Assembly: GCA_008080765.1 (NCBI GenBank)
Contig: SHMU01000012.1
Coordinates: 1-39,250, forward strand
Source of the DNA: Promethearchaeota archaeon
Lineage (GTDB): Archaea; Asgardarchaeota; Lokiarchaeia; Sigyniarchaeales; SOKP01
Direction: 5' to 3'
Length of the DNA: 39,250 bases
The notes under the pieces are model-generated. The model ran no database searches. It had not been told where the DNA came from and saw nothing but the letters and a program-made list of their open reading frames with translations. Both the position numbers and the translations under genes were made by a program. This document shows positions 2,452 through 33,309 of this stretch, piece after piece; the stretch's first letter is position 1; the number at the start of each line of letters is the position of its first letter.

Positions 2452-2844
2452 CTAATGTAACTGAAATCCGCAATAGGCACAGAAATTAAGCTTCCCTCTA
2501 TCATCAATTTCCAAGCCGCAATTAGTACAATATTTTAATTCTTTGCGTGATTGTGAATCATCCTCTTTCAAGGCTGTTTTTTTGATGGTTGTGAGGACTT
2601 GTCCCGACGATCCAGCTGCAGGGATTGTTTCACTATTTCTGAGTTTGTTAGACGCAAGGGCATTGAAAGTTGAATAGCAAAGACTATTGCAATGAATACA
2701 GCGATTCATAGGCTTTCTGAAGTATACTGAAAGGTAAATGAGGACTCCTATACCTGCAGTAAATATAGTTAAAAGCACTAGAATAGCCCAATTAATATCT
2801 TCACGTTTTACTTGTACTTCTTTATTACAATTTGAACAATACAT
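2452..2844 (-). CDS. zinc-ribbon membrane protein, paralogue A
   Basis: About 130 residues of unknown function. It begins MYCSNC, then has a hydrophobic stretch containing IFTAGIGV (residues 18-42), a second pair CIHC, a polar linker of about 55 residues, and a C-terminal zinc ribbon made of CTNC and CAYC pairs. I chose the ATG at 2844 over the upstream one at 2892 because it starts right at the first CxxC, as in the paralogues. The same order of parts is found in the next two minus-strand genes. If the hydrophobic stretch is a re-entrant hairpin, the two flanking CxxC pairs would face each other and bind one zinc. Membrane location is inferred from hydrophobicity. Confidence 0.75.
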   Translation of the reverse strand: MYCSNCNKEVQVKREDINWAILVLLTIFTAGIGVLIYLSVYFRKPMNRCIHCNSLCYSTFNALASNKLRNSETIPAAGSSGQVLTTIKKTALKEDDSQSRKELKYCTNCGLEIDDRGKLNFCAYCGFQLH

Positions 2845-3085
2845 ATAATTAATCACCTTATCTTTAATAAAATAATTGTAGTAAGTTATCAAAAGTAATT
2901 AAGATATTAAAAAGATATTTAGACCAATTCTTAAAAAGGGATCATTAAAATCAATTATTAAAATAAATTGTTTTAATTTTGAGTGAAGTAACTATAAATA
3001 ATAAAAGAATAGGGCGTTTAATTCTTTTGAATCAGTATTTAAAGCGAAGAATGTGTATGAAGAGTAATAAAAAAGTAATACTAAG

Positions 3086-3433
3086 TTACCTATCTATTGT
3101 GCTCTGACAATTTGGGCAAACATCCATATCCTTCTCCATTTTTTGACCGCAATAGGGACATAGTTCCAATTGAGAACCAACAAGAAATGAATCCTCTTTA
3201 GAAATAGGCTGTTCTAAGCTAAGTTTATAAGGATTTTCTAAAGGTTGAAACTGCTTTTTAAGCGACACCTCATCCCCGGTAATAGGTTTAAGTTTATAAT
3301 TGCATTCCACGCAAATAGTTTTCTCATGTTTCGAGTAATAAATCGCTAAGTAGATCGCCACTCCAATGCCTGCTGTGAAAATGGCTAAAAGTACAATCAA
3401 CCATATATCGGGAGGGACACGTTTTGCTCTCAT
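3086..3433 (-). CDS. zinc-ribbon membrane protein, paralogue B (start unclear)
   Basis: 115 residues from the first ATG: a hydrophobic segment with IFTAGIGVAIYL almost identical to paralogue A, then CVEC, a linker, and the ribbon pairs CPYC and CPNC. In the same frame upstream of the ATG the codons read YCQHCGRI, exactly the N-terminal CxxC expected from paralogues A and C. That frame has no ATG, GTG or TTG before a TGA at 3473-3475. A TTG sits one base out of frame across a run of five A (minus strand; T run at 3469-3473). The true protein probably starts near 3475 and the annotated ATG is likely too short, unless the gene has lost its first metal pair. Function unknown. Confidence 0.7.
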   Translation of the reverse strand: MRAKRVPPDIWLIVLLAIFTAGIGVAIYLAIYYSKHEKTICVECNYKLKPITGDEVSLKKQFQPLENPYKLSLEQPISKEDSFLVGSQLELCPYCGQKMEKDMDVCPNCQSTIDR

Positions 3434-3754
3434 TATCCTTCCACAATGCTGACAATATCCGCGTTCCGTTTTTCAATTCACCTTTTATAGAATAATAATG
3501 CGATATAAAATCTAAGACTTATGGATAATTAATTTTCACTCATATTAAAATAATATTTGGACCAGTTCTTTTTTGATGAAAGGCGTCATGGTCGTAAGAA
3601 GAACAAAATTTCTTACAATCTTATTAAAACTCTACAAACCTCTTATAAGAACTTTCTTATAATAAAGTAATTTTTCATTAGAATTGGTTAAAGAATAAAA
3701 ATGAGAGTGCTTATTTCTTGGTTTCTCCTTTCAATTAGGTTTTAGATATGTCTC

Positions 3755-4180
3755 TTATTGTACTTTTCCACAGAACGGACACACATCAATGTCTTCTTCA
3801 ATATTTTCACCACAATAAGAACATTTGACATAATTTGGTTCTATGAGAAATTCATCTTCGTCTTGTTCTTGAACAATGACCACTCGTTGTTCTTTCATTT
3901 TTTCCAGTTCCAGACGTTCCTCAAGATGTTTAACAGCAACCTTGGTAGGAAACTCTTCTTTTGTTCTATAAAATTTCACAATTTGGCGGCATTCTGGACA
4001 ATATTTTTTTTTTTGAAAACACAATCGATAAAGAATAAATGCTAAAAGACCAATTCCCAAAGTGGCAATAGTTGCGATAACTAAAATCTGATAATGGTAG
4101 GAGGTTAATTTTTTTCTTTTCGGTTTTTTTACATGCCGTCTGCAAGTGATACAATAAGCATACTTTTTTTTACGCGCCAT
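3755..4180 (-). CDS. zinc-ribbon membrane protein, paralogue C
   Basis: 141 residues: a basic start (MARKKK), CITC at residues 10-13, a strongly basic stretch (HVKKPKRKK), a hydrophobic segment around 31-54 (VIATIATLGIGLLAFILY), CPEC near 61, a charged linker, and the C-terminal ribbon pairs CSYC and CPFC. It shares the layout of the two minus-strand genes downstream (A and B), although the linker is not similar. The positive-inside rule places the basic N-terminus in the cytosol. No catalytic motif is seen. It could be a membrane adaptor that presents a zinc ribbon to cytosolic partners, but that is a guess. Confidence 0.75.
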   Translation of the reverse strand: MARKKKYAYCITCRRHVKKPKRKKLTSYHYQILVIATIATLGIGLLAFILYRLCFQKKKYCPECRQIVKFYRTKEEFPTKVAVKHLEERLELEKMKEQRVVIVQEQDEDEFLIEPNYVKCSYCGENIEEDIDVCPFCGKVQ

Positions 4181-4457: not shown

Positions 4458-5048
4458 TTGCATATCTGTTTGGAAGGAATTGATGGATCTGGAACAACTA
4501 CTCATAGTAAACTACTTTCCGAATTCTTAGAAACAAAGGGATATAAAACACATCTCACTAAGGAGCCCTCTTCGGGTGAGATCGGACTTCTATTACGAAA
4601 GTTTTTAAAGCGCGCCCAAATTCACCCCTCTACAGATGCCCTTCTCTTTGCGGCAGATAGGTCTCATCATTTCTTTACAGAAATTGAGAGCAAACTGACT
4701 CAAAATTATGTAGTTATTTCGGATAGATTTTTAGAATCCTCAATCGTCTATCAGTCCGCACAATCTCAACTGATTAGCGTGCAATGGATTAAGACTTTAA
4801 ATAAATTCATAAAAGAACCCGATATGACGATGATCCTTGATCTTCCCCCAAAAAAGGCGCTGGAAAGAAAAGAAGTACCGATTACGGACAAATTTGAGAA
4901 CATTGAGTTTCTAAAAAAAGTGCGAAAGCTATATCTTGAGAGAGCCCAAGAAAATAATTATTATATTATCAATTCCAACGATTTGATTGAAGTGGTGCAA
5001 AAGCACATCCAAAAACTTTGTTTAGAAGAATTGGATAAAATAAGTTAA
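4458..5048 (+). CDS. tmk: thymidylate kinase (dTMP kinase)
   Basis: Phosphorylates dTMP to dTDP. The 196 residues fit the family. The N-terminus carries LEGIDGSGTTTHSKLL (residues 5-20), the KEPSSGEIG region follows with the substrate arginine nearby, then LLFAADRSHH and VISDRFLESSIVYQ with the DR motif, and a base of hydrophobic strand MILDLPPKKALER. The start is TTG at 4458: the P-loop begins only six codons later and no ATG or GTG fits. The Walker A motif reads GSGTTT, so threonine stands where the usual lysine (GSGKTT) is expected. A gene for a membrane M28 peptidase follows 54 bases downstream. Confidence 0.9.
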   Translation: MHICLEGIDGSGTTTHSKLLSEFLETKGYKTHLTKEPSSGEIGLLLRKFLKRAQIHPSTDALLFAADRSHHFFTEIESKLTQNYVVISDRFLESSIVYQSAQSQLISVQWIKTLNKFIKEPDMTMILDLPPKKALERKEVPITDKFENIEFLKKVRKLYLERAQENNYYIINSNDLIEVVQKHIQKLCLEELDKIS

Positions 5049-5102: not shown

Positions 5103-6431
5103 ATGACAATCGAGAAAAGTATAAATTCCCTTCAAGAAGAACCCTTTACTGAAGAAAGTGTATTCCAATATGTAGAGGATTTTAGCTTTCCCCGATTAGC
5201 AGGAACGGAGGGCGAGAGGAAAGCCGTGGCTCTTACCATACAAAGATTTAACGAAATTGGTTTTAAGCAAGAGGAGATCATACAAGAACCATTTGAGTTT
5301 TCCGATTTTTATTCCACAACTTTGATTAAACTAGTTGGGATGATAACATGTATTTTTTTATTAGCATTTTTACTATTTAGTTATATTGAGATTTATATCT
5401 CGCTTCTTATTTTGGCAGTTCTCGGTGCTATCGTGGTTATGATTATGAGAGGGCTTAAATCTCCGGAAGATCCGGGATTTTGGGGAAAATATTATGGAGA
5501 AATTTTTGAGGCGACTAATGTGTATGTGAAGGTACCTTCCAAAAAGCTACCAGAACAAGAGGCGGGCAATATTGTGATATCGGCTCATTTAGATTCAAAG
5601 TCTCAAAATTTTAAAACTGCCATAAGAGTTAATGTATATCGTCTTTTTGTGATCGGTGGATTTTCATTTTGTATATTTATACTCATAAAAACCATTTGGT
5701 ATTTCTTATTTATGGGATTTTATTTTGCTATTAAGTTACGTACGTGGATTTTGGTTGGTCTACTCTTGGATTATGGTTTATGGATTTCAGCGGGATGCAT
5801 AATTATTGCCAATCTTTTCTTAATGTTTCTAAATACCCATAATAAATCTCCGGGTGCTCTTGATAATGCTTCAGGAATGGCTATTGTATTTGAATTAAGT
5901 TCATATTTCAGAACAAATCCCTTAAAAAATTATAATGTCTGGTTCTGTCAATTTTCCGCAGAAGAGCTCGGAACTATGGGATCCAGAATCTTTCTTAACA
6001 ATCAAAAGGAGGAGTTTGAACAGGGGAAAATCTTTCAATATAATATTGATATGATTTCGTGTAAAGGCTGCTCGAAACATAACAGAATTGAATATATCGA
6101 ATCCTATGGTATTATCCCTAAGAAAAAGTTTACCACATTATGTAGTAAATATTTAGAAAGGGCGGCATTAAAAAACAATATTGACATATTTGGGGTACAT
6201 TTTCTAACGGGTGCACATACAGACTCGCTTCCCTTCCATGCAAAAGAGTTTGATGCCCTCGATTTAGGTTCAATCTCAGCGTCAAAATGGGGGCATACTG
6301 CGGAAGATACCCCAGATAAGGTTGATTCTAAAATCTTAAAAGAAACTTGTGTCCTATTGAAGAATGCTTTACTTGAAATTGATTCTGATTATTATAAATT
6401 AGATAATAGAATTGAATACTCAAAAAAATGA
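5103..6431 (+). CDS. membrane-embedded M28 family metallopeptidase
   Basis: 442 residues. An N-terminal segment typical of M28 proteins (FSFPRLAGTEGERKA) is followed by two membrane helices at about 73-115. The five M28 zinc ligands are all visible: H162 (with D164, in AHLDSK), D254 (ALDNASG), E287/E288 (AEELG), D316 (NIDMIS) and H398 (GHTAEDTPDKVD). In ordinary M28 enzymes the first two ligands lie about 20 residues apart. Here they are 92 apart, separated by an inserted hydrophobic block of two or three helices. The active site is therefore held at the membrane surface; which side is not certain. leuC follows after 18 bases, suggesting one transcript. Substrate unknown. A paralogue lies at 19827-21002. 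Confidence 0.88.
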   Translation: MTIEKSINSLQEEPFTEESVFQYVEDFSFPRLAGTEGERKAVALTIQRFNEIGFKQEEIIQEPFEFSDFYSTTLIKLVGMITCIFLLAFLLFSYIEIYISLLILAVLGAIVVMIMRGLKSPEDPGFWGKYYGEIFEATNVYVKVPSKKLPEQEAGNIVISAHLDSKSQNFKTAIRVNVYRLFVIGGFSFCIFILIKTIWYFLFMGFYFAIKLRTWILVGLLLDYGLWISAGCIIIANLFLMFLNTHNKSPGALDNASGMAIVFELSSYFRTNPLKNYNVWFCQFSAEELGTMGSRIFLNNQKEEFEQGKIFQYNIDMISCKGCSKHNRIEYIESYGIIPKKKFTTLCSKYLERAALKNNIDIFGVHFLTGAHTDSLPFHAKEFDALDLGSISASKWGHTAEDTPDKVDSKILKETCVLLKNALLEIDSDYYKLDNRIEYSKK

Positions 6432-6449: not shown

Positions 6450-7718
6450 ATGAGCTATACAATTAGTGAAAAGGTGCTTTTAGAACATTCGGAGAAAGAG
6501 GACATATCTTCGGGTGAATTTATAGAATGTTCGATAGATATGGTAATGGTACATGAACAATTGGGCGGAAGAATTCATCAAGAATATGAAAAATTACATC
6601 TAAATCGTGTATGGGATCCATCTAAAATATTTTTCATATTAGATCATTGGGTTCCGGCGCCCACGGTCTCTGCAGCTCAGATGCACCAAGATTGCAGAAG
6701 ATTTGCTCAAAAATATCAATTTATCCATAATATGGGGATTAATGAGGGAATATGCCATCAAGTATTCCCCGAAAAAGGATTCGCAAGACCCGGAATGCTC
6801 ATAGTTGGATCAGACAGCCATACTACCACTTACGGCGCATTTAATTGTTTAGCTACAGGGATTGGTGCTACAGATGTATGTGTGGTATTTGCAACGGGAA
6901 AATTATGGTTTAAGGTTCCCAGCTCTTATAGAATTCATCTTTCAGGGAATCTTCCGGAGGGGGTAATGGCTAAGGATTTTATCCTCAAATTTATTGGAGA
7001 CATTTCTACCAAAGGAGCAATTTATAAGTCTTTAGAGTTTTATGGAGATGGTGTGCAATCACTCTCAATGGATGGAAGAATGACGATATCAAATATGGTG
7101 GTGGAAGCAGGAGCTAAATTTGGCATTTTTTTAGCAGACGAGAAAACAAGAAGATGGGTCAAGCGCGTTTCACATGCTCCCTTTAAAGCCGTCTTTCCCG
7201 ATGAAGAGGCATCTTATGAGAAAAAATTTAACTATGATCTTTCTGACTTGGAGCCAGTAGTTGCAAAGCCTCATAGTCCTGAAAATATCGCTTCTATTAG
7301 CAAAGTAGAAGGAATTCAGATCGATCAAGCTTTTCTTGGAAGTTGTACAAACGGAAGATTAGAAGATCTCAGGATTGCCGCACACATTATGAAGGGAAAA
7401 CGGGTAAATGATAAAACACGGTGTATTGTAATCCCTGCATCTAAAAAAATTTATATGGAAGCGCTTACCGAAGGTTTGATTGAAATTTTTATTAAAGCGG
7501 GAGCAGTAGTTGGAAATAGCACTTGTGGTCCTTGTATTGGAGGTCATCTAGGGGTCCTAGGAAAGGATGAGGTGTGCATCAGTACCACTAACAGGAATTT
7601 TATAGGAAGGATGGGAGCCCCCTCATCTCAAGTATATCTAGCCTCTCCTGCAACTGTTGCTGCTTCAGCTATTAAAGGATATATTACAGATCCGAGAGAG
7701 AGAGTGAAGAATAAATGA
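6450..7718 (+). CDS. leuC: 3-isopropylmalate dehydratase / homoaconitase-type large subunit
   Basis: Large [4Fe-4S] subunit of a two-part aconitase-family hydro-lyase, 422 residues as in archaeal LeuC/HacA. Cluster ligands are in FLGSCTNGR and STCGPCIGG (CxxC). GSDSHTTTYGAFNCLATGIGATD is the substrate/cluster loop, and DHWVPAP and HNMGINEGICHQVFPEKG lie before it. The stop codon overlaps the small-subunit start by four bases (ATGA), as expected for subunits made together. Leucine synthesis (isomerising 2- to 3-isopropylmalate) is the default role; homoaconitate or another hydroxy acid is possible because the family changes specificity easily. The presence of ilvD in the window favours the branched-chain pathway. 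Confidence 0.9.
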   Translation: MSYTISEKVLLEHSEKEDISSGEFIECSIDMVMVHEQLGGRIHQEYEKLHLNRVWDPSKIFFILDHWVPAPTVSAAQMHQDCRRFAQKYQFIHNMGINEGICHQVFPEKGFARPGMLIVGSDSHTTTYGAFNCLATGIGATDVCVVFATGKLWFKVPSSYRIHLSGNLPEGVMAKDFILKFIGDISTKGAIYKSLEFYGDGVQSLSMDGRMTISNMVVEAGAKFGIFLADEKTRRWVKRVSHAPFKAVFPDEEASYEKKFNYDLSDLEPVVAKPHSPENIASISKVEGIQIDQAFLGSCTNGRLEDLRIAAHIMKGKRVNDKTRCIVIPASKKIYMEALTEGLIEIFIKAGAVVGNSTCGPCIGGHLGVLGKDEVCISTTNRNFIGRMGAPSSQVYLASPATVAASAIKGYITDPRERVKNK

Positions 7719-8206
7719 AAAAAGTGGAAGGATATGTATACATTATGGGGGACAATATTAGTACGGACGACATTGTTCCAAGTCATTGTTTAACGTTGAG
7801 AGATTCCATGGAAATGGCACAGTATACTTGTGAAGCAATAGAGGCTAATTTCACTCAAAAAGCTAAGAATCTTAATATTATCGTAGCAGGAGATAATTTT
7901 GGCTGCGGAAGTTCTCGAGAAGAGGCGGTAAATGTATTTAAAGTGCTGGGCATTAAAGCGATCATCGCAAACTCATTCGCACGCATCTATTTTAGGAATC
8001 TCATAAATCAAGGCATCCCGGGCATCACATATCAATGGGATCCAAGAGATTTTACCGAAGGAGATCAGATAGCAATATTTTTAGAAAAGGGAATAATTCA
8101 AAATAAAACCAACAATACAGAGTTTAGCTTTATACAGCTTCCCCCCTTTTTATTAGCGATTTTGGAAAAGGGGGGGATTTTAAACCAGTTGCGCGAAAAA
8201 ATTTAA
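7715..8206 (+). CDS. leuD: 3-isopropylmalate dehydratase / homoaconitase-type small subunit
   Basis: Swivelling small subunit of the LeuCD hydro-lyase, 163 residues. It starts with GDNISTDDIVPSHCLTL, then GDNFGCGSSREEAVNVFKVL with the catalytic GSSRE, and ANSFARIYFRNLINQGIP. The loop after DIVP decides substrate in this family: archaeal homoaconitase usually has YLRT. Here the loop reads HCLT, so neither classical signature is present and the substrate cannot be assigned from this loop. The gene is translationally coupled to leuC. It converges with the HD gene, with five bases between the two stops. Confidence 0.9.
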   Translation: MKKVEGYVYIMGDNISTDDIVPSHCLTLRDSMEMAQYTCEAIEANFTQKAKNLNIIVAGDNFGCGSSREEAVNVFKVLGIKAIIANSFARIYFRNLINQGIPGITYQWDPRDFTEGDQIAIFLEKGIIQNKTNNTEFSFIQLPPFLLAILEKGGILNQLREKI

Positions 8207-9772: not shown

Positions 9773-10588
9773 GTGGCTAAAAAGAAAAAAAAGTCTGAAG
9801 AGAACGATAAGGAGAAAGAGGATGATCTATTGGATCTTGAAGAAGATCCCATCTTAGATTTTGATGAAGATTTTGAAGAAGATTTAGATCTCGAAGAAGA
9901 ACTAGATTTACTTGATACTGAAGATATTAGCGTGCTTGAGGAAGAAGAGACTATAATAGATAAGGATGAGGAAAAAAAACAATTATATTTGAGTTCAGGG
10001 ATTCATATCGGGACAAAATTATTAACGGGAGATGCGAGAAGATTTATCTATCGTCAAACCAATTACGGTTTATACGTAATTGATCTTACCCAGACAGAAG
10101 AACGCATCGCTATTGCAGCAAAGTTTCTTAGCAAATATATAGAAGAGGGGAGCGATAAGGTTATTGTATCCTCCGTACGAAGATATGGCAAAGAACCAGT
10201 ACGAAAGTTTTGTGAAGCTCTCAGCTGCCGAGCCGTGGTTGATAGATTCATCCCGGGTTCGCTTACTAACCCAAATATCGCAACATATATTAAAGATGCA
10301 AGTGTGGTATTTATTGTAGATCCTCATGCAGATAAAGTAATTCTCGAAGAAGCGAGACTAGCCCGAATTCCCGTGGTAGCTTTATTTGATACGGACGATA
10401 CGCTCAATGGAATTGATTTAGCCGTTCCTGCTAACAATCGTGGTAAGAAAGCCTTGGGATTGGCGTTTTGGTTGCTTGCCCGAGACATCTCATTGGAACT
10501 GGGAAAAATTGCCAGTGAAGATGATTTTCCCTACACGTTAGAAGACTTTACCTCCAATATTATTCCATTGTACAAGCAGCAACAATAA
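9773..10588 (+). CDS. rpsB: small ribosomal subunit protein uS2
   Basis: uS2 of the archaeal/eukaryal type, 271 residues. The conserved core starts near residue 69 (LYLSSGIHIGTKLLTGDARRFIYR), then LYVIDLTQTEERIAIAAKFL, FIPGSLTNPN, VVFIVDPHADKVILEEA and the C-terminal ARIPVVALFDTDD. Ahead of the core is an unusual extension of about 65 residues: a lysine stretch (MAKKKKK), then a long Asp/Glu tract. Archaeal uS2 is often about 200-230 residues, so the extension explains the extra length. The start is GTG at 9773. In many archaea the gene sits with rpsI, rpoN, rpoK and eno; none is present here. Confidence 0.95.
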   Translation: MAKKKKKSEENDKEKEDDLLDLEEDPILDFDEDFEEDLDLEEELDLLDTEDISVLEEEETIIDKDEEKKQLYLSSGIHIGTKLLTGDARRFIYRQTNYGLYVIDLTQTEERIAIAAKFLSKYIEEGSDKVIVSSVRRYGKEPVRKFCEALSCRAVVDRFIPGSLTNPNIATYIKDASVVFIVDPHADKVILEEARLARIPVVALFDTDDTLNGIDLAVPANNRGKKALGLAFWLLARDISLELGKIASEDDFPYTLEDFTSNIIPLYKQQQ

Positions 10589-14147: not shown

Positions 14148-17100
14148 TTATAGCTTATAACCGCATTTCGTGCAATATTTCGCCCTTTCATAGTACATTT
14201 CGTCACAATTCGGACAATTCGCTTTATACACGCCCATTTTATTCTCAAAAATTAATTGTTCACCGCAATTATTGCAATATCTATCTTGTAAGTATGTCTC
14301 TTCACCGCATTTGCTACAATATTTTTTTGAATCTACAAAAGGAATGTCAATTTCTCTAAGATCCTTTCTTCTAAGAGTTTTGATGATATAAGGGCGTAAG
14401 AAAAGTGATAAAATTGCCGTTATTGCAAATGGACCCGCTACTACTGCTAAAAGAATTGCCGTCTCAGTGTTAAGTAAATTTGTAGTCGAAATTACTGCTA
14501 TCAGCACCGAAATCAAAAATACCACCGTTTTATACCCCATTCGGGTAATTAATCGAGAGGATTCCTCATCTTTTGCATATAGCACTAAGTTATCAGATAT
14601 GCCCTTTTCTCTCTGTTGATGAATATTTTTAACTGTTTTACTAAGTTGTATATATGTTGTGATGATGACCAAAATTAAGGATGTCAAGAAAACACCAATT
14701 ATTGATATATATAATTTGGGTATTTCTAACCCTCCTATATTATATGTAGATTCTAACAAATAATAATTAAACCAAGGAATCCAACTTCCAACAATAATCA
14801 TTAGAATGATGTTCGCAAGAATCAAAGTAATTTGAAAAATCTCTAACACAGCATTTTTAGGATTCATCTTTTCGAAGAAAATATTGGAAGAGATATCTCT
14901 GCTCATTAATATCATATAACCAAAGATGGACATTAATAAACTTCCGATAATCATTAGTATACCAATTGAGGCGTATGAAAAAGAAATTAATAGTCCAATA
15001 ATGAATACTGAAAGTGTTGCAATAAGGGTAGCATAATAGACAATGGAATAGGGAGTATAACTTTCTTTTTTCGCGTCTTTTTTTGGTGTTTCTTCTTCTT
15101 TTTTTAATCCGTTTTTATCTACTTTCAAATTCTTCTTCATTTCTTTGCTTTCCGCTAACAAAGCTTCAATCTGTTGTTTATTCATAATCTCATGACTAAT
15201 ATTCTTTAATCTGCTATATCCAGTAGCTAATATGACACCCACAACAGCAGAAATTATGAATGTGATTATATATTGGTAATTCTCTAGTGAAAAATCGGGC
15301 AATTCAGGAAAGAATGAAATGGCTCTGGTATTAATCAAAATATGTTCTTGATTGTTCTGATCGATAACAACTACTTGATAATATAATGTGCGGGTATCCC
15401 CCGAGAGGGGAGGAAGAAATGCAGTATATGTTGGGCTATTAGATTGCAGCGGAATGGGTATCCATGGCGGTGTTCCTTCTTCAGTTGAATAGCGGAAAAT
15501 AATATCTTTCACAAATTCATTATCATTATCAATTGTAATTGAAATTAAATGATATTCATCAGAAGAATATTCTGTAAATTCATTAAATACAAAATTGCTA
15601 GTAAATTCAAACCTTGGAATGTGATATTCATAATATAACCCATCATTATCATTTTTTAGCACATTTCCCGCAAGATCTGTTGCTACAACATAGTAATTAA
15701 CTTGTGTAGAAGTGTAGTTGGCATCTATTGTGGCAATATACTTGTTTCCATCATTTAACATTTCTATTTTCTGCCAGCCTTGTGAATCAGTGCCGTCTCT
15801 TTGATAATAAAGCATCACAGTCATATTGATATTATCAGTCGCATTCACTTGGATTTGCACAGCATCACTCGGAAGGGGATATGCCTCATCAGTTGCAATA
15901 CTCATTATCTGGGGAATATCATAGTCCACATAAAACCATCCCGTTTTATTGGCCATATTAAACGCATTATCTATTAATCTCAATATGAATGAATAGTTTC
16001 CTTCGGGTAAATATTCATCAAAATCATTCAATCCATCATAAGTAATTCTTGATGTTGTGCTTGAAGAGATTGATTTTTTCTGAAATTTCACTAAATTAGT
16101 TTCCCGAGCAGAAAAAAGTTCAAAGTCAGCATCATCATCGATTGGCGTGGTATAAAAGGTTTCAAAGCCATCAAATGAGGTAAATGAAGAACGATTTAAT
16201 GGATCAATGTCAAATGGACCGTTCCAATTATCACCAGAATCATAGGTTTGAAATTCTTTATATGTAGGTATACCTACTTGAAATCCTTGGATATATATGG
16301 ATCTTATACCAACATGAGCCGTTTTATTGCGAGATAAGAGAAATTTTGGGCTATTGTTTTCAGGAGCATCAACTTCATAATCAATATCATAAGGTCCCTT
16401 TTGAATGGGATTATCAATATAACTAAAAAATGGATTTAAATTAAATTTTTGAAAATAAACCTTTATTTTATTAGTTGTTTGATTACCTAACGGCATAGAG
16501 AGATATAATTCTTGATTCACGGGTTCATAGATTATATCTGGATTTAGCTTATCCTTCAAATCTTTATCATCATTAGTCTCAAATAATTTCCAATATTTTT
16601 GGGTCCAATGTAGTCCCAAATCATTCGAAGAATACAGATAGAATTTGTTTTGATTTAAGAGTTTTAATGTTAGAAACATGTTACTACTATTTGTAAATAC
16701 AATTTTTGAAACATACTCATAGGCTGAAGTTGGATTAATCCCAAGTAGGCGTGTAGGAGATAAAAATGTTTCTGCTTCATCAAAACTTCTATAGATCACT
16801 TCAGTAGAATCAGCCGCTCTATATACACAAACAATATCATCCCATGCCGCTCCAGTATAATATCCTATGTCTTGGGAGCTTTCGAAAACAATTGTAGGTT
16901 GACTCCATGTAACCCCTCTATCGGTGGATTTTATAATGCTTAATACATTTCGTCCGAATTCTTCTGTTTTATAAATGATATATAATTGTCCTGCAGGGGA
17001 ACTAAAAATCTTGGGATTTAAATCTGCCCAATTGTTATCAGTAATTTGTTGCCAAGAACTAAGACTATTATTTTCTTTGTATATTTCTAAAAGAGATTCA

Positions 17101-18677
17101 CAACTTTCTGAAGGAAGCAAATCCCATTGAATCTCCGAGAGGGTGATATTGGTGTGTTGTGGATTGAAATAATTTTTTTCTTGATTGTAATCTTCAAATG
17201 AGGGATCTTCATTATCTAAAATGATAAATAATGATTCTGGTCCAATAATTGTTGTATTTTCTACAGTTAATTCTGCTTTTACCATTGTAGTGTTTATCTG
17301 TTGTTGTAGGAGTGTTTTTCCATTCCAAAAAATATGTTCTACCGTAAACTCAATACAAAACCCTTGAGAAGAGAAGTAGATATTATCAAGAAAATGATAA
17401 TATTGATACACTTCATAAGCATTCTCTCCGAGATAATTATTTGAAAAAAAGAATTGATAATCTTGTCCATTATAAATTGCATTGAAAAAGTGATATACCC
17501 CTCCAAGAGGATAACTGCTACCTAGAGGGACAGGGAGCAAAAAATTTGATATAAAACTTGTACAATTGCGTACAATTATATCAGCATAATCACCATAGTC
17601 AATCTTCTCTATCATATAAATTAAATCCACATCTGAATCATAGAAAAAGTCATATTCATCCATATTCATATTATGAGAAGATGATACAATTTTTGTAGGG
17701 ACGCTTATATTTAACGATTGGCTTACATTAAATTCTGCCCATGAAATATATTGCGAGGCTCCTTGTACTGCTTCCCACATTAACCATTTGGATCCGCTTG
17801 TATTGTTTACCTGCATTCTTGGGTTTTTAACTCTGTCTAATCCTTTTATACATGTAATATTATGGGGGCCTATCCAACTCGAGCCATTATTATAACTTTC
17901 AAAATAGCAAACTTTCGTCAAGGATGTCGAATTAGTTTCAGCTAGTGCATATATCATTCCATTACTTTGAATTGAAAGTTCCAGAGTATGATTATCGTCA
18001 TTTCTCAGTTCAGTCCAGCCCAGATCAGTTTTATCTGCGATAGTTGAAGTTATTGTCCAGCTTGTTCCATTATCTGTAGAACCGAAATAATTTAAGGAAG
18101 TCTGATTTATCCATGAAATAACACCAATTTTTTTATTGTTTGGTTGAGCATCTATACCGGTGCCAATAAAGAAATTAAATAGATCATCAGAATTAACTCC
18201 ACTTGGTTCATACGATTTTATAATCTGAGTGTTCCATGTTTTTCCTTTATCAATACTAGTTAATAATTTAATACTGGCATTGTCAAATCTGTTTAAATTT
18301 ATTTCTGTATATGAAAGATAAAACAAATCAGATCCGCTCGGATTAACGAAAGCTACATTATATTCTAGTTCTGATGTATATGTCAGAAATGTAGGGTAAT
18401 TAATGATTTCTAGCGTGTAATTTCCATTTTTATTTAGCATAAATGAAAAGAAAAGGTCATCATTCTCTCCGGGTGAGGATTCTGGAGAGATGTAATATCG
18501 GGACGCTTTAAATTCTTCAATAAATTGAAAAGACTGAGATGAGTAGATCCTATCATTTGTTTCCGGGAGGAATCTTAAGTTGCTGGTTTTAGGTATTAAA
18601 TTACCGATTAAAGTAGCAATCACTGCAATGGATAGTGTAATTATCAGCGCATATTTTATATTTGATTTTGTTTTCAT
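14148..18677 (-). CDS. giant surface protein with Asp-box repeats, membrane helices and zinc ribbons
   Basis: 1509 residues. An N-terminal signal anchor (7-28) leads into about 1100 extracellular residues rich in N-x-S/T sequons. At least six Asp-box (BNR, sialidase-like) motifs are visible: DKGKTWN near 143, DNGTSW 200, NNGSSW 261, DRGVTWS 585, DLGLHW 685 and DSGDNW 813. These imply one or two beta-propellers. Two Ig-like modules follow (for example VNYYVVATDLAGN). A helix at 1132-1153 crosses the membrane, then comes a charged coiled-coil-like linker, five or six more helices, and a cytosolic end with four CxxC pairs (CSKC, CNNC, CPNC, CTKC) from about 1452. It could sense or bind an external ligand and signal inside. 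Catalytic sialidase residues were not identified, so an enzyme role is not claimed. Confidence 0.8.
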   Translation of the reverse strand: MKTKSNIKYALIITLSIAVIATLIGNLIPKTSNLRFLPETNDRIYSSQSFQFIEEFKASRYYISPESSPGENDDLFFSFMLNKNGNYTLEIINYPTFLTYTSELEYNVAFVNPSGSDLFYLSYTEINLNRFDNASIKLLTSIDKGKTWNTQIIKSYEPSGVNSDDLFNFFIGTGIDAQPNNKKIGVISWINQTSLNYFGSTDNGTSWTITSTIADKTDLGWTELRNDDNHTLELSIQSNGMIYALAETNSTSLTKVCYFESYNNGSSWIGPHNITCIKGLDRVKNPRMQVNNTSGSKWLMWEAVQGASQYISWAEFNVSQSLNISVPTKIVSSSHNMNMDEYDFFYDSDVDLIYMIEKIDYGDYADIIVRNCTSFISNFLLPVPLGSSYPLGGVYHFFNAIYNGQDYQFFFSNNYLGENAYEVYQYYHFLDNIYFSSQGFCIEFTVEHIFWNGKTLLQQQINTTMVKAELTVENTTIIGPESLFIILDNEDPSFEDYNQEKNYFNPQHTNITLSEIQWDLLPSESCESLLEIYKENNSLSSWQQITDNNWADLNPKIFSSPAGQLYIIYKTEEFGRNVLSIIKSTDRGVTWSQPTIVFESSQDIGYYTGAAWDDIVCVYRAADSTEVIYRSFDEAETFLSPTRLLGINPTSAYEYVSKIVFTNSSNMFLTLKLLNQNKFYLYSSNDLGLHWTQKYWKLFETNDDKDLKDKLNPDIIYEPVNQELYLSMPLGNQTTNKIKVYFQKFNLNPFFSYIDNPIQKGPYDIDYEVDAPENNSPKFLLSRNKTAHVGIRSIYIQGFQVGIPTYKEFQTYDSGDNWNGPFDIDPLNRSSFTSFDGFETFYTTPIDDDADFELFSARETNLVKFQKKSISSSTTSRITYDGLNDFDEYLPEGNYSFILRLIDNAFNMANKTGWFYVDYDIPQIMSIATDEAYPLPSDAVQIQVNATDNINMTVMLYYQRDGTDSQGWQKIEMLNDGNKYIATIDANYTSTQVNYYVVATDLAGNVLKNDNDGLYYEYHIPRFEFTSNFVFNEFTEYSSDEYHLISITIDNDNEFVKDIIFRYSTEEGTPPWIPIPLQSNSPTYTAFLPPLSGDTRTLYYQVVVIDQNNQEHILINTRAISFFPELPDFSLENYQYIITFIISAVVGVILATGYSRLKNISHEIMNKQQIEALLAESKEMKKNLKVDKNGLKKEEETPKKDAKKESYTPYSIVYYATLIATLSVFIIGLLISFSYASIGILMIIGSLLMSIFGYMILMSRDISSNIFFEKMNPKNAVLEIFQITLILANIILMIIVGSWIPWFNYYLLESTYNIGGLEIPKLYISIIGVFLTSLILVIITTYIQLSKTVKNIHQQREKGISDNLVLYAKDEESSRLITRMGYKTVVFLISVLIAVISTTNLLNTETAILLAVVAGPFAITAILSLFLRPYIIKTLRRKDLREIDIPFVDSKKYCSKCGEETYLQDRYCNNCGEQLIFENKMGVYKANCPNCDEMYYERAKYCTKCGYKL

Positions 18678-18984: not shown

Positions 18985-19746
18985 TCAAACCTCTTGTAGT
19001 TGTTGATGAGAAGATGGTTCTGTTTTTGCCGACTTCTTTTTTGCTTTTCTTCGTTCTTCTAACATTATCAGAGAAAATCTAAAATTTGAAAATAAAAAGG
19101 TTAGGTATACAATCCATTCCAGAAAATAATTGGGAAAGACGGGAAATAATTCTCCTGTGAGTGCCGTATATATTTTTGCCATATTAAATATGAACACCGT
19201 AAGAGAGCAAATTCCGCATAAGATAAGTTTTTCACCACCTTCCCCTTTTACAATAATATAAAGATATACAAGCCCTGAATAGAATAGCCAAGAACCAAAG
19301 AAATACATCTCTCCAACAAATCCATGGAGTTTATTTAAATTGAGTGGAAATATACCTGCCATAAAACTTCCAAGAGATTGAATTGAAGTGGTAATATAGA
19401 GAAAAAGTAGAATATTTATTTTATTTGTTTTATAATAAAAGGAATTTACCAAAGAGTAATGAAATAGAAGCATAAAAGGGCTTGCAATCGTCATTCCTAA
19501 AAAGAAGAAGATATTTGAGCCATTGGGTCCAATAGAGAGATTAGAGATCCATTTTTCAAAAATACTAAAGGTGGGATCTTCTACAATATATAAGATGAGA
19601 GCAACTGCGATAAAAATACCTAATGACCCATAACCTATTAATCCAAAATATGGAGCGGGAATCTTCTTGAATAATCGGTTATAAAACCCGATAGGTTTCA
19701 AAATTAATGTTTCTTCTAATTCATCACTTATTTTTTTGATCCACAA
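18985..19746 (-). CDS. multi-pass membrane protein (DUF998-like)
   Basis: 253 residues with six or seven hydrophobic helices. WISNLSIGPNGSNIFFFLGMTIASP after the first core helix has the layout of DUF998 proteins (a helix, then ISxLG...NxxF, then a helix). SLGSFMAGIFPLNLNKLHGFVGEMYFFGSWLFYSGL gives the conserved G-x-FP...H...F pattern. The N-terminal 30 residues and the C-terminal lysine-rich tail are probably cytosolic. A relative of the same class lies at 27357-28094. The family has no established function. It sits downstream of the M28/ilvD genes on the same strand, about 80 bases apart. Confidence 0.65.
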   Translation of the reverse strand: MWIKKISDELEETLILKPIGFYNRLFKKIPAPYFGLIGYGSLGIFIAVALILYIVEDPTFSIFEKWISNLSIGPNGSNIFFFLGMTIASPFMLLFHYSLVNSFYYKTNKINILLFLYITTSIQSLGSFMAGIFPLNLNKLHGFVGEMYFFGSWLFYSGLVYLYIIVKGEGGEKLILCGICSLTVFIFNMAKIYTALTGELFPVFPNYFLEWIVYLTFLFSNFRFSLIMLEERRKAKKKSAKTEPSSHQQLQEV

Positions 19747-19826: not shown

Positions 19827-21002
19827 TTAACTATACGGTTTAGATATCTTTTTATCATATTCTTCTAAAAGAGTGATGAGAACTCTTCCAAACTGTGCAA
19901 GAAAAGAGTGGTCTACTTTATCTACGGTATCTTTGGGGGAATGAATATATTTATAAGCTTTTTTATCGGCAAATCCAATTCCCTTGTAATTTTTATTCTT
20001 TAAATAATAGCCATCGCTTCTATTAAGAGCAAAAATAAAATATTTTATATAATAGGAGGGGTCCAATTCCTCGGAAAGATCAGCAAATAGTTTAAACAAG
20101 GAGGTATGTTCTCCTTTATTTTTTACTGCAAATACATCTAAATGGGTTCCAATAGAGTCAAAATTTAAATATCTTGTTGTTTGATGATGCCACTCTTGTT
20201 TATGTTTCCTATAAAGATAGCGTATCCCCATAGTACCATTTTCTTCTGCCCCCGTAAATATAAACCAGAGATCAATTGATGTGAGTCTATTTTCTATCTT
20301 ATTAAAATGATGTAAAAGCTCTAAAACAAGTGAGACTCCAGAACCATTATCAATTGCTCCCGGGGATTTATTATTGGTAGTATTTACCAAAATCAAAACA
20401 GTACTAATTAGATTGAGTAAAAGAATACACGCTATGATTAAATTGAAGATGATATTTGAGATGAAGAAATATTTAAGTATCAACAAAGCAACGATTATTA
20501 TAAATGAATATATCCATACTTTTGTGTTAATACTTCGAAAAGTTATGGTCAGTTTCTGGCATTTAGAGTCTTTATGGCTTAATAATAAGAATTGGATTTT
20601 ATTGGATTTTTCAGCAGTATGATTGGGAACTTTTGCATCAAGTTTTATGCATACATTCTCTGATTGATATTTCTCACCCAGTGAAATATCTTCGGGATGG
20701 CGCGTAATTATAATAAGAGGCACAAAAATAATGCTCAAAATTACAATATTAATTAAGATAAATATAATATTGATATAAAGAAAGAATACAACAAGTAACC
20801 ACCAGATGGAGCAAAAGGCTAGCTTTTTATAGACTCTAGGATAAAAAGTCGTAAAAGAAAATTTTTGAATTTCGGGGTTTAATCCTAATTCTTCAATTTT
20901 TTGGATAATCAACTTTGATGCTTGCTGTTCATGTTCCGTCCCCGAAAGTCGCGGGAAGGAAATACCCTCCAAGTTTTTCTCAATCCTTTCTGCGTCTATC
21001 AT
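19827..21002 (-). CDS. membrane-embedded M28 family metallopeptidase, second copy
   Basis: 391 residues with the same plan as the protein at 5103-6431: [15 protein letters not shown], a membrane helix pair at about 58-95, then the M28 domain. Ligands seen: H143 (SHKDSK, with D145), D218 (AIDNGSG), a Glu pair in GAEENGTMG, an Asp in NFDSIGTHL, and the last His in [14 protein letters not shown]143 and D218 are 75 residues apart, separated by two membrane helices, where about 20 residues is normal for M28. All metal ligands are kept, so activity is expected. The start overlaps the ilvD stop by four bases, so both are made from one transcript. Substrate and side of the membrane are unknown. Confidence 0.88.
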
Positions 21003-22672
21003 TTTAAATATGCCCCCTCTTTTGCGGAACTCACAGTTTGCCGATAAATATTAAGATAACCTGTTCTAATTTTAGGTTCTAAAGGTTTCCAATTGTTAAA
21101 TCTTTTTTCAATCTCTTGTTTAGAAAGCAATAAATTAAGCCTGCGATTCTCAATATCGATTTCAATCATATCTCCATTTTTAACTATCGCAATGGGACCT
21201 CCTTCATATGCTTCTGGGCAGACATGGCCTATACAAGGACCTCTGGTTGCTCCAGAATATCTCCCATCCGTTATCATAGCCACTGATTCCCCTAATCCCA
21301 TCCCCACTAACATGGCTGCGGGAATAGATAATTCACGCATTCCAGGAGAGCCTTTGGGACCCTCATAACGAATGACCAATATATCTCCACGCTTCACTTC
21401 TTTCGAATATAATGCTTCTTTCACTTCCTCTTCGGAATTAAAGACGACGGCAGGTCCCGTATGGGTTTTCATTCGGGAACTAATAGCGCTCTGTTTGACG
21501 ATAGCTCCTTCTGGTGCTAATGTTCCTCGCAATACGGCAATTCCCCCTTCATTTTCCAGAGGATGTTTGAGGGTTCTAATAACGGATGATTCTTTAGATT
21601 CAATCTTGCTAAGAACATGCTTTAGTGGCTTTCCCTCGACAGTAATAGGAGATAGGTCTAACAATGAAGAAAGACGTTTCATAATTCTCTTTACACCACC
21701 CGCTTTATGAAAATCTGTTAGATTATATTGTGAAGCTGGTTTAAATCTTGCTAATAATGGAACAGAACGGCTTAACATATCAAAATCAAAATGAGTTAAA
21801 TCCACTCCTATTTCGTGCGACAGAGCACACATGTGTAATACCATGTTAGAGGAGCCTCCAAAGGATAATGCGGTTTTAATCGAATTTATGAGTGATTCGG
21901 AAGTAATAATTTTTCGGGCGTTAAGTCCCTTTTCTATTAATCTTAATATTGTCTTACCCGTTTCAAGGGAGAGGAGTTCCCTTTCCTTGCTAAGAGCACC
22001 CGCAGTGGCACATCCAGAAAGTGAAAGTCCCATTGCCTCTACAATACACGCCATAGTATTTGCTGTACCCATCATATTGCATGCTCCAGCAGATGTACAA
22101 GTTTGCGATTCGATTTGAAGAAATTCTTCTGGAGTGATCTCTCCTGCTCTCACTAAGCCGATAGCCTCTTTTATATCGCATGTTACATAGGTTTTTCCCT
22201 TTAATGGACCTTCCATAAAAGTTTTCGCTTCCATTATTCCTCCAGTCAAAAAAATGGTGGGGATATCGCATCTTGCAGCGGCAAGCAACATTCCCGGAAT
22301 AATTTTATCGCAAGAACAGATCATCACCATTCCATCATAATTATAGGCTTTTATCATGCATTCTATTGAGTTTGCAATTACTTCTCGTGAAGGTAACACA
22401 TATTTTGAAAAGTTTCCAGAATTTGCAATCCCATCGCATATTGCTATTGTGTTAAATTCCATCGCGGTCCCTCCACCTTCCTTAATAGCTTCATTTACTA
22501 TCTTACTTAACTTCCTTAGGTGTATATGTCCGGGATTCATTTCATTCCAAGAGTTGACAATTGCTATTCTCGGCTTTTGAAGATCTTCATTAGAAAACCC
22601 ACATGCGTGATATAGGGCTCTTTCATATGCTTTTCGTGGATCTAATTCTGTTTGGGTTTTTTTTTCATTCAT
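20999..22672 (-). CDS. ilvD: dihydroxy-acid dehydratase
   Basis: 557 residues, the standard length of IlvD. It removes water from dihydroxy acids to give the 2-keto precursors of valine, leucine and isoleucine, using an Fe-S cluster. Cluster cysteines are in CSCDKIIPG and [60 protein letters not shown] and [13 protein letters not shown] are further family motifs, and [19 protein letters not shown] is near the C-terminus. IlvD and Edd/sugar-acid dehydratases are hard to separate by eye, but the spacing and the LeuCD pair in the window favour IlvD. The M28 peptidase gene overlaps its stop. Confidence 0.9.
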
Positions 22673-27356: not shown

Positions 27357-28094
27357 ATGTCTCAAAATACTTCAGACAACAAATTAAACCCCGACCAAAA
27401 TAAAATTCATGCGATAATTGCAAAATTGACTCAACCAGAGCTCATAAATATATGTATTATATTATCCTTCATAATATTCATTAGTGGGTTAGCAATAGCA
27501 ACTTTGATAGCATTCTTTACGAGAGGGTTCAATATTTGGGAGAATTATATCTCTGATTTAGGATCCATCCGCTATACACCAACACCCTTCATCTTAGATA
27601 TCATCGCAATAATCACATCCGTCTTGCTTGTACCGGTAAGTATATACTTCTCCTGGTCTCTTTATAAAGAGACTAAGACCGATGTGGAAGGAAAAAGCAA
27701 GGGTTTTTTCATATTTTTGAAAGTCTTCATCATAATCGGATTTATCTTCTTGCTTTCATCCTCAGTAGGGTTCTTTGGAATTGGAGTCTTCTCAGAGGAT
27801 AGAACTACATCATTAGGACTTCATAATTTTTTCTCTTATATAGTATTTGGCTCCTTTGCATTCTCTTCAATGTTCAATGGAATTGTGCTTCTTTCACAAA
27901 ATGAGAATTTTCAAGTAATGTACCCTCGTATAATCGGAGCTATAATGCTTTTTGTGAATGTCCCCATAAGCATTCTGTTTTTGGTACTTCCTCCTCTTTT
28001 ACCGCGAGAGTTTTTGGAATGGATAATGTTGTTTTCCGTGTTTGCATGGATTATGCCCACCACCTTGATAATTAGAAAAAGTTTAAAGTTATAG
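27357..28094 (+). CDS. DUF998-like membrane protein
   Basis: 245 residues with six helices. NIWENYISDLGSIRYTPTPFILDI is the DUF998 signature after the first helix, and the next helices include SVLLVPVSIYFSWSLY and FLLSSSVGFFGIGVF. LGLHNFFSYIVFGSFAFSSMFNG carries the family histidine. Function is unknown; related proteins are widespread membrane proteins in archaea and actinobacteria. It stands alone after the lipid operon, separated by 184 bases. Confidence 0.72.
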   Translation: MSQNTSDNKLNPDQNKIHAIIAKLTQPELINICIILSFIIFISGLAIATLIAFFTRGFNIWENYISDLGSIRYTPTPFILDIIAIITSVLLVPVSIYFSWSLYKETKTDVEGKSKGFFIFLKVFIIIGFIFLLSSSVGFFGIGVFSEDRTTSLGLHNFFSYIVFGSFAFSSMFNGIVLLSQNENFQVMYPRIIGAIMLFVNVPISILFLVLPPLLPREFLEWIMLFSVFAWIMPTTLIIRKSLKL

Positions 28095-32184: not shown

Positions 32185-32475
32185 ATGACTCTAAACGCAG
32201 AAAGTAATATGGATGACCATTTTCAAAAAACAAGTTCTCTTTTATCGTGTTTGAGCGATTGCCCCCATAAAACCGATGTTGAAGTGGTATCAGTGAATGC
32301 TGGTTTAGGGGCGAAAAAACGACTCTGTGACCTCGGAATCGTTCCGGGAACAAAGATTACAAAGACACGTTCGGGAATCTTGAGAGGACCCGTCCAAGTC
32401 GATGTGAAAGGTTCAAAAATTGTACTGGGACGTGGATTGGCCGCAAAGGTTATAGTAAAATGTAATAATTCATAG
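32185..32475 (+). CDS. feoA: FeoA-domain protein 1
   Basis: 96 residues. The SH3-like FeoA domain spans about 28-95: VVSVNAGLGAKKRLCDLGIV, PGTKITKTRS, LRGPVQVDVKGSKIVLGRGLAAKVIVK. FeoA is a small cytosolic partner of the ferrous-iron transporter FeoB. The N-terminal 27 residues (LSCLSDCPHKTDV) hold two cysteines and are similar in position to the start of the second FeoA, which reads IKCLTECEKDEI. It is separated from the second feoA by 385 bases, so it probably has its own promoter. Confidence 0.93.
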   Translation: MTLNAESNMDDHFQKTSSLLSCLSDCPHKTDVEVVSVNAGLGAKKRLCDLGIVPGTKITKTRSGILRGPVQVDVKGSKIVLGRGLAAKVIVKCNNS

Positions 32476-32860
32476 TTTTATGTTTTTTGGATATGGTTTT
32501 CTCTCAATTTCACTTTTAATTTTTTATTACAATGAGAAAAAATTTAGTTTTAACACTTTCTAAATTATAATTTAATTAATGTAAATTACTGATTATTCTA
32601 TTTTAAGGTATTTATTATTCAATATAATATTAAATTGAGATCTATTTGTTAGACTTTTAATTTTAAAACCCTCTATGCATAGTAATACCTTCATACTCTT
32701 ATTTAAGATTAGATATTGCTGTTCAGATTCATTTATATTAATATTTTTTTCTTTTAATAATTAAAATCGTTTTAAGCTGCATTATATTTAGGTATAGCTA
32801 GATTTATAAATAATGATTAACTAAAAAAATTAAGAAATAAAAAAATTTTGGTTAAAATTA
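32476..32860. other. 385-bp region between the two feoA genes
   Basis: Very AT-rich. T-rich stretches right after the first feoA (32478-32535) could end its transcript. ATTTAGGTA at 32786-32794, followed by TTTATAAA near 32801, precedes the second feoA and repeats the 9-mer found before the first one (32062-32070). No ORF or RNA gene is recognised. Confidence 0.4.
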
Positions 32861-33166
32861 ATGATTGAAAGTATCTTAAAGAATATACAAGGTAAGGATC
32901 AAAGAGGAAGCTCATTAATAAAATGTCTAACAGAATGCGAAAAAGATGAAATCATTTCTGTGATCAAAGTAGATACGGGAAAGAAAGCAAAACAGAGACT
33001 TTCGAACTTAGGGATAGTCCCGGGAGCCAAGTTGGTGAAGTGTAGATCTGCACCCCTAAAAGGTCCTCTAGAAGTCAAGATAAAGGGCTCTAGCTTAGTC
33101 CTGGGTCGAGGGATTGCATCCAAAATTTTTGTAAAATGTAGTGAAGAGCAATGCCAATATATATAA
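32861..33166 (+). CDS. feoA: FeoA-domain protein 2
   Basis: 101 residues with the same layout as the first FeoA: LIKCLTECEKDEIISVIKVD, then GKKAKQRLSNLGIVPGAKLVK, LKGPLEVKIKGSSLVLGRGIASKIFVK. A cysteine-containing end (CSEEQC) is added. The two proteins are clearly paralogues; most feo operons have one or two FeoA domains, so two is not rare. feoB starts 143 bases downstream on the same strand. Confidence 0.92.
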   Translation: MIESILKNIQGKDQRGSSLIKCLTECEKDEIISVIKVDTGKKAKQRLSNLGIVPGAKLVKCRSAPLKGPLEVKIKGSSLVLGRGIASKIFVKCSEEQCQYI

Positions 33167-33309
33167 TCATATAATTCCATTCATTAGGACAAATTATTAA
33201 ATTATTAAATTATAAATTATTAAGCTAAAAGGTATTATAAAATTATATATTCTTGCTTAGTTGGGTTCTTGTTATATTTTTATCTTAAATAACGATTCAA
33301 AGCCTATTA

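Follow-up and report, generated by a model that had tools for sequence, protein, structure and literature searches.

We have analyzed two genes of the M28 peptidase family located in the same stretch of Asgard (Lokiarchaeal) DNA (39,250 nucleotides, hereafter the window), which derives from a 3.9-Mb metagenome-assembled genome. The first, M28a (P0001, 5103–6431, plus strand), codes for a protein of 442 amino acids and the second, M28b (P0002, 19827–21002, minus strand), for a paralogue of 391 amino acids with the same architecture, the two being 28% identical. Both matched the Pfam profile Peptidase_M28 (PF04389), with E = 1.8e-20 and 73.9 bits for M28a and E = 9.9e-24 and 84.6 bits for M28b (cut-off 21.3), as did all 70 members of the group that we aligned (E ≤ 0.001). 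In the two window proteins the match begins only near D254 (M28a) or D218 (M28b), because an insert cuts off the strand carrying the first histidine.

The metal ligands H, D, E, D/E and H and the catalytic Glu are all present, and in order, in both proteins. In M28a the first ligand, H162, opens the motif H162-x-D164-S-K166-S-Q168-x6-R175 (5586–5627), followed by the bridging ligand D254 (5862–5864), the general base E287 with the ligand E288 (5961–5966), D316 (6048–6050; D in 61 of the 70 aligned members and E in the other 9) and H398 (6294–6296). The M28b counterparts, on the minus strand, are H143-x-D145-S-K147-C-Q149-x6-R156 (20535–20576), D218 as bridging ligand (20349–20351), E253/E254 (20241–20246), D282 (20157–20159) and H354 (19941–19943). 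An earlier note on this DNA had reported the five M28 ligands in M28a and the same arrangement in the paralogue, from H143 to D218, and the residues and codons that we checked agree with it in both genes. M28a and M28b are thus M28 members by profile, ligands and predicted fold. The wide spacing described below leaves this membership intact, a short spacing being typical of the family and not a curated requirement.

Two hairpins inserted in active-site loops

The first His and the bridging Asp are 92 residues apart in M28a and 75 in M28b. This gap is 12 in an unsplit M28 that the same genome encodes, and 10–25 in five other unsplit enzymes, two of them from plasmids, two from viral contigs and one from a bacterium, in line with the contrast of 92 against a usual value near 20 that had been pointed out before. 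Each protein has four transmembrane (TM) helices forming two membrane hairpins, as seen in the AlphaFold2 models read with DSSP and, for M28a, also by hydropathy. Hairpin 1, absent from the earlier note and found in both models, separates strand beta1 from beta2; hairpin 2 interrupts the short loop that joins His to Asp. In M28a the first comprises TM1 (residues 69–95, 5307–5387) and TM2 (97–118, 5391–5456), and the second TM3 (172–206, 5616–5720) and TM4 (212–241, 5736–5825). The corresponding helices of M28b are TM1 (53–75, 20778–20846), TM2 (79–100, 20703–20768), TM3 (153–179, 20466–20546) and TM4 (184–206, 20385–20453), all on the minus strand. Two or three helices had been proposed between H162 and D254; the helices are there, but both models show exactly two. 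We discarded a count of three, since an odd number in this loop would put the ligands on opposite sides.

The models were confident (pLDDT 93.6 for M28a and 92.8 for M28b, pTM 0.91 for both) and had the same order of elements, helix for helix. In both of them a strand ends with the first His, the bridging Asp belongs to the opening turn of a helix, the EE pair starts three residues past a strand and the second Asp comes immediately after one, so that each model has its ligands at the strand ends expected of M28. High-scoring Foldseek matches included soluble M28 aminopeptidases and glutaminyl cyclases, with TM-scores over the target of up to 0.76 for the Streptomyces griseus aminopeptidase (1tf9) and of 0.69–0.73 for the Vibrio proteolyticus (Aeromonas) enzyme (1amp). 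Since the models are confident and match soluble M28 aminopeptidases, the M28 alpha/beta fold is predicted to survive both insertions, and from the fold match and the register we infer that the ligands converge. The alignment of the 70-member profile with the AM-1 aminopeptidase (2ek8) places both inserts. It consists of three blocks, with profile positions 4–54 on chain residues 12–63, 115–152 on 194–231 and 222–393 on 234–396. At the position of hairpin 1 the 2ek8 chain has 130 residues, and at that of hairpin 2 only two. The middle block, which holds the His motif, is weak when taken alone (independent E of about 1) and is correctly ordered between two strong blocks.

In the sheet order of zinc exopeptidases beta1 and the His strand both end at the active-site edge, and therefore all four helices would leave from the catalytic face. 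The earlier note had suggested structure prediction as a check, and had placed the active site at the membrane surface. Both proteins were modelled and their predicted fold matches known M28 structures, with TM helices leaving the loops of the active-site edge, which supports that placement as a prediction. Of the two outcomes that the same note had regarded as fatal to its claim, a fold in which the ligands do not come together and a long-described subfamily, the first is at odds with the match of the models to M28 structures, and no description of the second was found in the literature searched.

An artefact has also to be considered, as the sequence derives from a metagenome-assembled genome and a gene fusion, a frame error or a misassembly could have put hydrophobic sequence into an M28 gene. 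The same insertion appears in the two window genes, at three more loci of the genome and in many independent assemblies. This conservation rules out a frame error or a fusion as the source of the split and reduces the chances of an artefact to practically nothing. We regard the four-TM split architecture as very probable.

Known relatives and distribution of the split family

The best matches in both sequence and fold were AM-1 (2ek8) and the Bacillus subtilis YwaD/BSAP enzyme (6hc6), which have the same ligands and the same EE pair as the split M28s. They also carry an insertion at the beta1-beta2 site of hairpin 1, but it is soluble, of about 130 residues, and corresponds to their PA domain. 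Such a domain of the YwaD type was not found between beta1 and beta2 in the window proteins, which have the TM hairpin there instead. In AM-1 and YwaD a loop of a few residues joins His and Asp in a domain without TM helices, whereas the split M28s have hairpin 2. The enzymes 1amp and 1tf9 share the dizinc M28 core, but they are soluble, secreted and without TM helices in either loop.

Membrane-bound relatives are also known. ERMP1/Fxna, an M28 of the endoplasmic reticulum with nine TM helices, has these helices outside the M28 domain, which is lumenal. It resembles the split M28s in being multi-TM, but its H-to-D segment is unsplit. In the Schizosaccharomyces pombe Ermp1 the ligands H161 and D173 are 12 residues apart (PMC11120530). 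This layout, with an uninterrupted M28 domain, is not that of the window proteins, whose helices interrupt the domain at two loops. Nicalin, GCPII and the transferrin receptor have M28-related domains on membrane proteins and gave weak matches to the split-M28 profile; their membrane helices are at the chain ends and not within the fold. S2P (M50) and Ste24 (M48) have a zinc site accessed from the membrane, as proposed here for the split M28s, and the likeness ends there, their folds and motifs (HExxH) being unrelated to M28. The open-access literature that we searched held no description of a helix-split M28 with TM helices between its ligands, although this is not proof of novelty.

By similarity to M28a the genome has five copies, the window pair included; one of the five has a frame that is broken or partial. 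In a first survey of 114 relatives the gap was 74–93 residues wherever the script recognised both motifs, a few sequences with no D motif or with a partial ORF being left uncounted, and hydropathy peaks appeared before and inside the gap. Three low values given by the script (37–38) were motif mispicks, the alignment giving 78 for L136 and L138 and 90 for L154. Overall, the gaps of the split relatives are 74–109 residues. A match was present in 56 of the 58 genomes searched (the one studied here included), and in many Lokiarchaeal genomes the split M28 is multi-copy. Over the Asgard phylum, 136 of 228 genomes matched the family profile at E ≤ 1e-25; among the matches listed, those below 1e-100 were confined to the class of the window. 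As weaker matches could be unsplit enzymes, we checked 12 genomes from other Asgard families in detail. They contained 18 proteins, and the 17 with a measurable H-to-D spacing were all split (gaps 83–109); in the eighteenth, whose motif was missed by the script, the hydrophobic peaks were at the same places.

Outside the Asgard archaea, 25 of the 297 Actinomycetota genomes sampled had a match at E ≤ 1e-20. In the phylum of the Saganbacteria, one genome out of 74 has a split member, and a second match (L163) was unsplit. Other phyla were reached by a pattern scan only (best 79 loci). A viral origin was considered and rejected, since all five of the M28 relatives examined, out of nine found by the scan of viral contigs, were unsplit. 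The same applies to a plasmid origin, as the plasmid enzymes found were unsplit in two cases, the remaining one being a distant split member. The latter, on a Mycobacterium riyadhense plasmid (L175:826-2031), has weak hydrophobic segments and is annotated as an M28 family peptidase.

In a tree built with the insert columns left out, and with an unsplit sample that was small (six) and had long branches, 64 split proteins formed one group against the six unsplit ones (support 99/97), which is compatible with a single origin of the split. Within it, 45 proteins with the signature K-x-Q-x6-R formed a subgroup of their own (92/95), among them M28a, M28b, the Saganbacteria protein and nine proteins from Actinomycetota. 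The complete signature of the subfamily is H-x-D-S/T-K-x-Q-x6-R. In the 70 aligned members H162, D164, K166, Q168, R175, N247, S249, G251, D254, E287, E288, G293 and D374 are invariant, position 165 is occupied by S or T, and the metal ligands are near-invariant; K166 and Q168 are absent from the other split subfamilies. Three actinobacterial split members (L132, L144 and L151) have apparently lost metal ligands and may be inactive, possibly pseudoenzymes.

The earlier note had taken the split for a shared family trait and proposed a search for other M28 proteins with helices between the motifs. The trait is indeed shared by both window proteins and the three further copies in the genome, by members from each of the Asgard families sampled and, among bacteria, by some Actinomycetota and one Saganbacterium. 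The split M28s are a large and apparently undescribed family of Asgard archaea and some bacteria. Present annotation conceals them, as the Pfam match is confined to the half that follows the insert and one distant member is simply labelled 'M28 family peptidase'.

Sidedness, gene neighbours and possible role

The density of K+R was 0.124 in the flanks on the domain side against 0.029 in the loops of the far side, which are short and confound this positive-inside comparison, and the domain side was the higher one in 70 of 70 members. There was no signal peptide and no hydrophobic segment before TM1 by sequence and hydropathy, and the flank that precedes TM1 is net negative. The richer K/R on the domain side, together with the lack of a hydrophobic segment before TM1, suggests that the catalytic domain is quite likely on the cytosolic face. 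Most of the M28 enzymes known, including ERMP1 and GCPII, are secreted or lumenal, and by that precedent the same enzyme could have its domain outside the cell and act on exported or environmental peptides. The two features just mentioned argue against it, and we consider an outside location quite unlikely.

Upstream of M28a is a thymidylate kinase gene (Tmk, 4458–5048, plus strand), found there in 38 of 47 orthologous loci, and downstream a LeuC/LeuD-type dehydratase pair (isopropylmalate/homoaconitate; 6450–8206, plus strand). A gene of the LeuC/HacA family is directly downstream in 23 of the 47 (limit 80 bp). In a further group of loci the LeuCD pair is absent and Tmk and an HD-domain gene remain. 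The start of M28b overlaps the end of the dihydroxy-acid dehydratase gene ilvD (20999–22672, minus strand), and in 7 of 21 related loci M28b comes directly after ilvD, at a distance of -3 to +21 bp. As enzymes that make branched-chain or related amino acids, LeuCD and IlvD would fit the recovery of amino acids from hydrophobic peptides, which is suggestive. As M28a persists where LeuCD is missing, the LeuCD neighbourhood is weak evidence for function and we have not kept it as functional proof. Neither is branched-chain synthesis certain, because the subfamily of the LeuC homologue also covers homoaconitases. On its other side M28b has a DUF998-like membrane protein (18985–19746, minus strand; weak match below the cut-off), and a second one is located in a lipid-synthesis cluster (27357–28094, plus strand).

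The reading that we favour, by a rather narrow balance, is that of a membrane-interface exopeptidase with four TM helices, probably cytosolic, and probably an aminopeptidase for hydrophobic peptides of the inner leaflet. Its base would be the co-catalytic dizinc fold of M28, with two hydrophobic hairpins replacing two loops of the active-site edge. As both insertions consist of a pair of helices, the chain would return to the same side, and the ligands could assemble as usual with the catalytic face at the membrane interface; a membrane-facing active site is, on the predicted structures, likely. With the domain probably facing the cytosol, the exopeptidase would trim hydrophobic peptides that are in the inner leaflet or next to it, for example remnants of signal peptides or TM segments, and the invariant K-x-Q-x6-R, at the junction of the active site and TM3, may contact substrate or lipid headgroup. 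As an aminopeptidase acting on membrane peptides the enzyme is put forward tentatively, at somewhat under even chances.

The helices could also be an anchor only, keeping an ordinary M28 aminopeptidase at the membrane, where it would cleave soluble peptides and have no privileged access to substrates in the membrane. The fold and ligands match those of soluble aminopeptidases, and other split subfamilies do without K166 and Q168, so the hairpins are not tied to one substrate motif. A simple anchor, however, needs a single terminal helix, and here there are two hairpins in active-site loops, kept in the split relatives measured, which makes this explanation rather unlikely.

M28 also includes glutaminyl cyclases, so that aminopeptidase activity is not assured. 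A related amide-bond enzyme, be it a cyclase or a hydrolase acting on N-acyl or lipid-linked amino acids, would agree with the M28 cyclases among the fold matches and with K166, Q168 and R175, the basic or polar residues that one subfamily keeps invariant next to the site. The EE pair of general base and ligand and both His ligands are nonetheless kept as in aminopeptidases, which are also the best matches in fold and sequence, and we judge such an enzyme unlikely, a little more so than the simple anchor.

If the membrane-interface exopeptidase is correct, the hairpins inserted between ligands would turn a dizinc exopeptidase fold into an enzyme of the membrane interface without breaking the site, providing a route to exopeptidases acting on membrane peptides. 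Since split M28s were found in every other Asgard genome examined in detail, this would bear on the handling of membrane peptides by the relatives of eukaryotes. More speculatively, they could represent a new class of interfacial dizinc exopeptidases, ancient in Asgard archaea and shared with some Actinomycetota, in which the inter-ligand hairpins press the fold to the cytosolic leaflet and hydrophobic peptides enter laterally from the bilayer.

As for the remainder of the window, a search for Rfam elements found none. Three consecutive small proteins (2452–4180, minus strand) are likely paralogues; all of them have Cys pairs of zinc-ribbon type and a single hydrophobic segment bearing a similar motif. 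A homologue of ribosomal protein uS2 (9773–10588, plus strand) has a charged, acidic N-terminal extension of about 65 residues. A protein of 1509 residues (14148–18677, minus strand) is hydrophobic at its N terminus and zinc-ribbon-like at its C terminus, and also has several TM segments and a large part that is presumably extracellular. Finally, two small FeoA-like proteins are followed by FeoB (32185–35496, plus strand).
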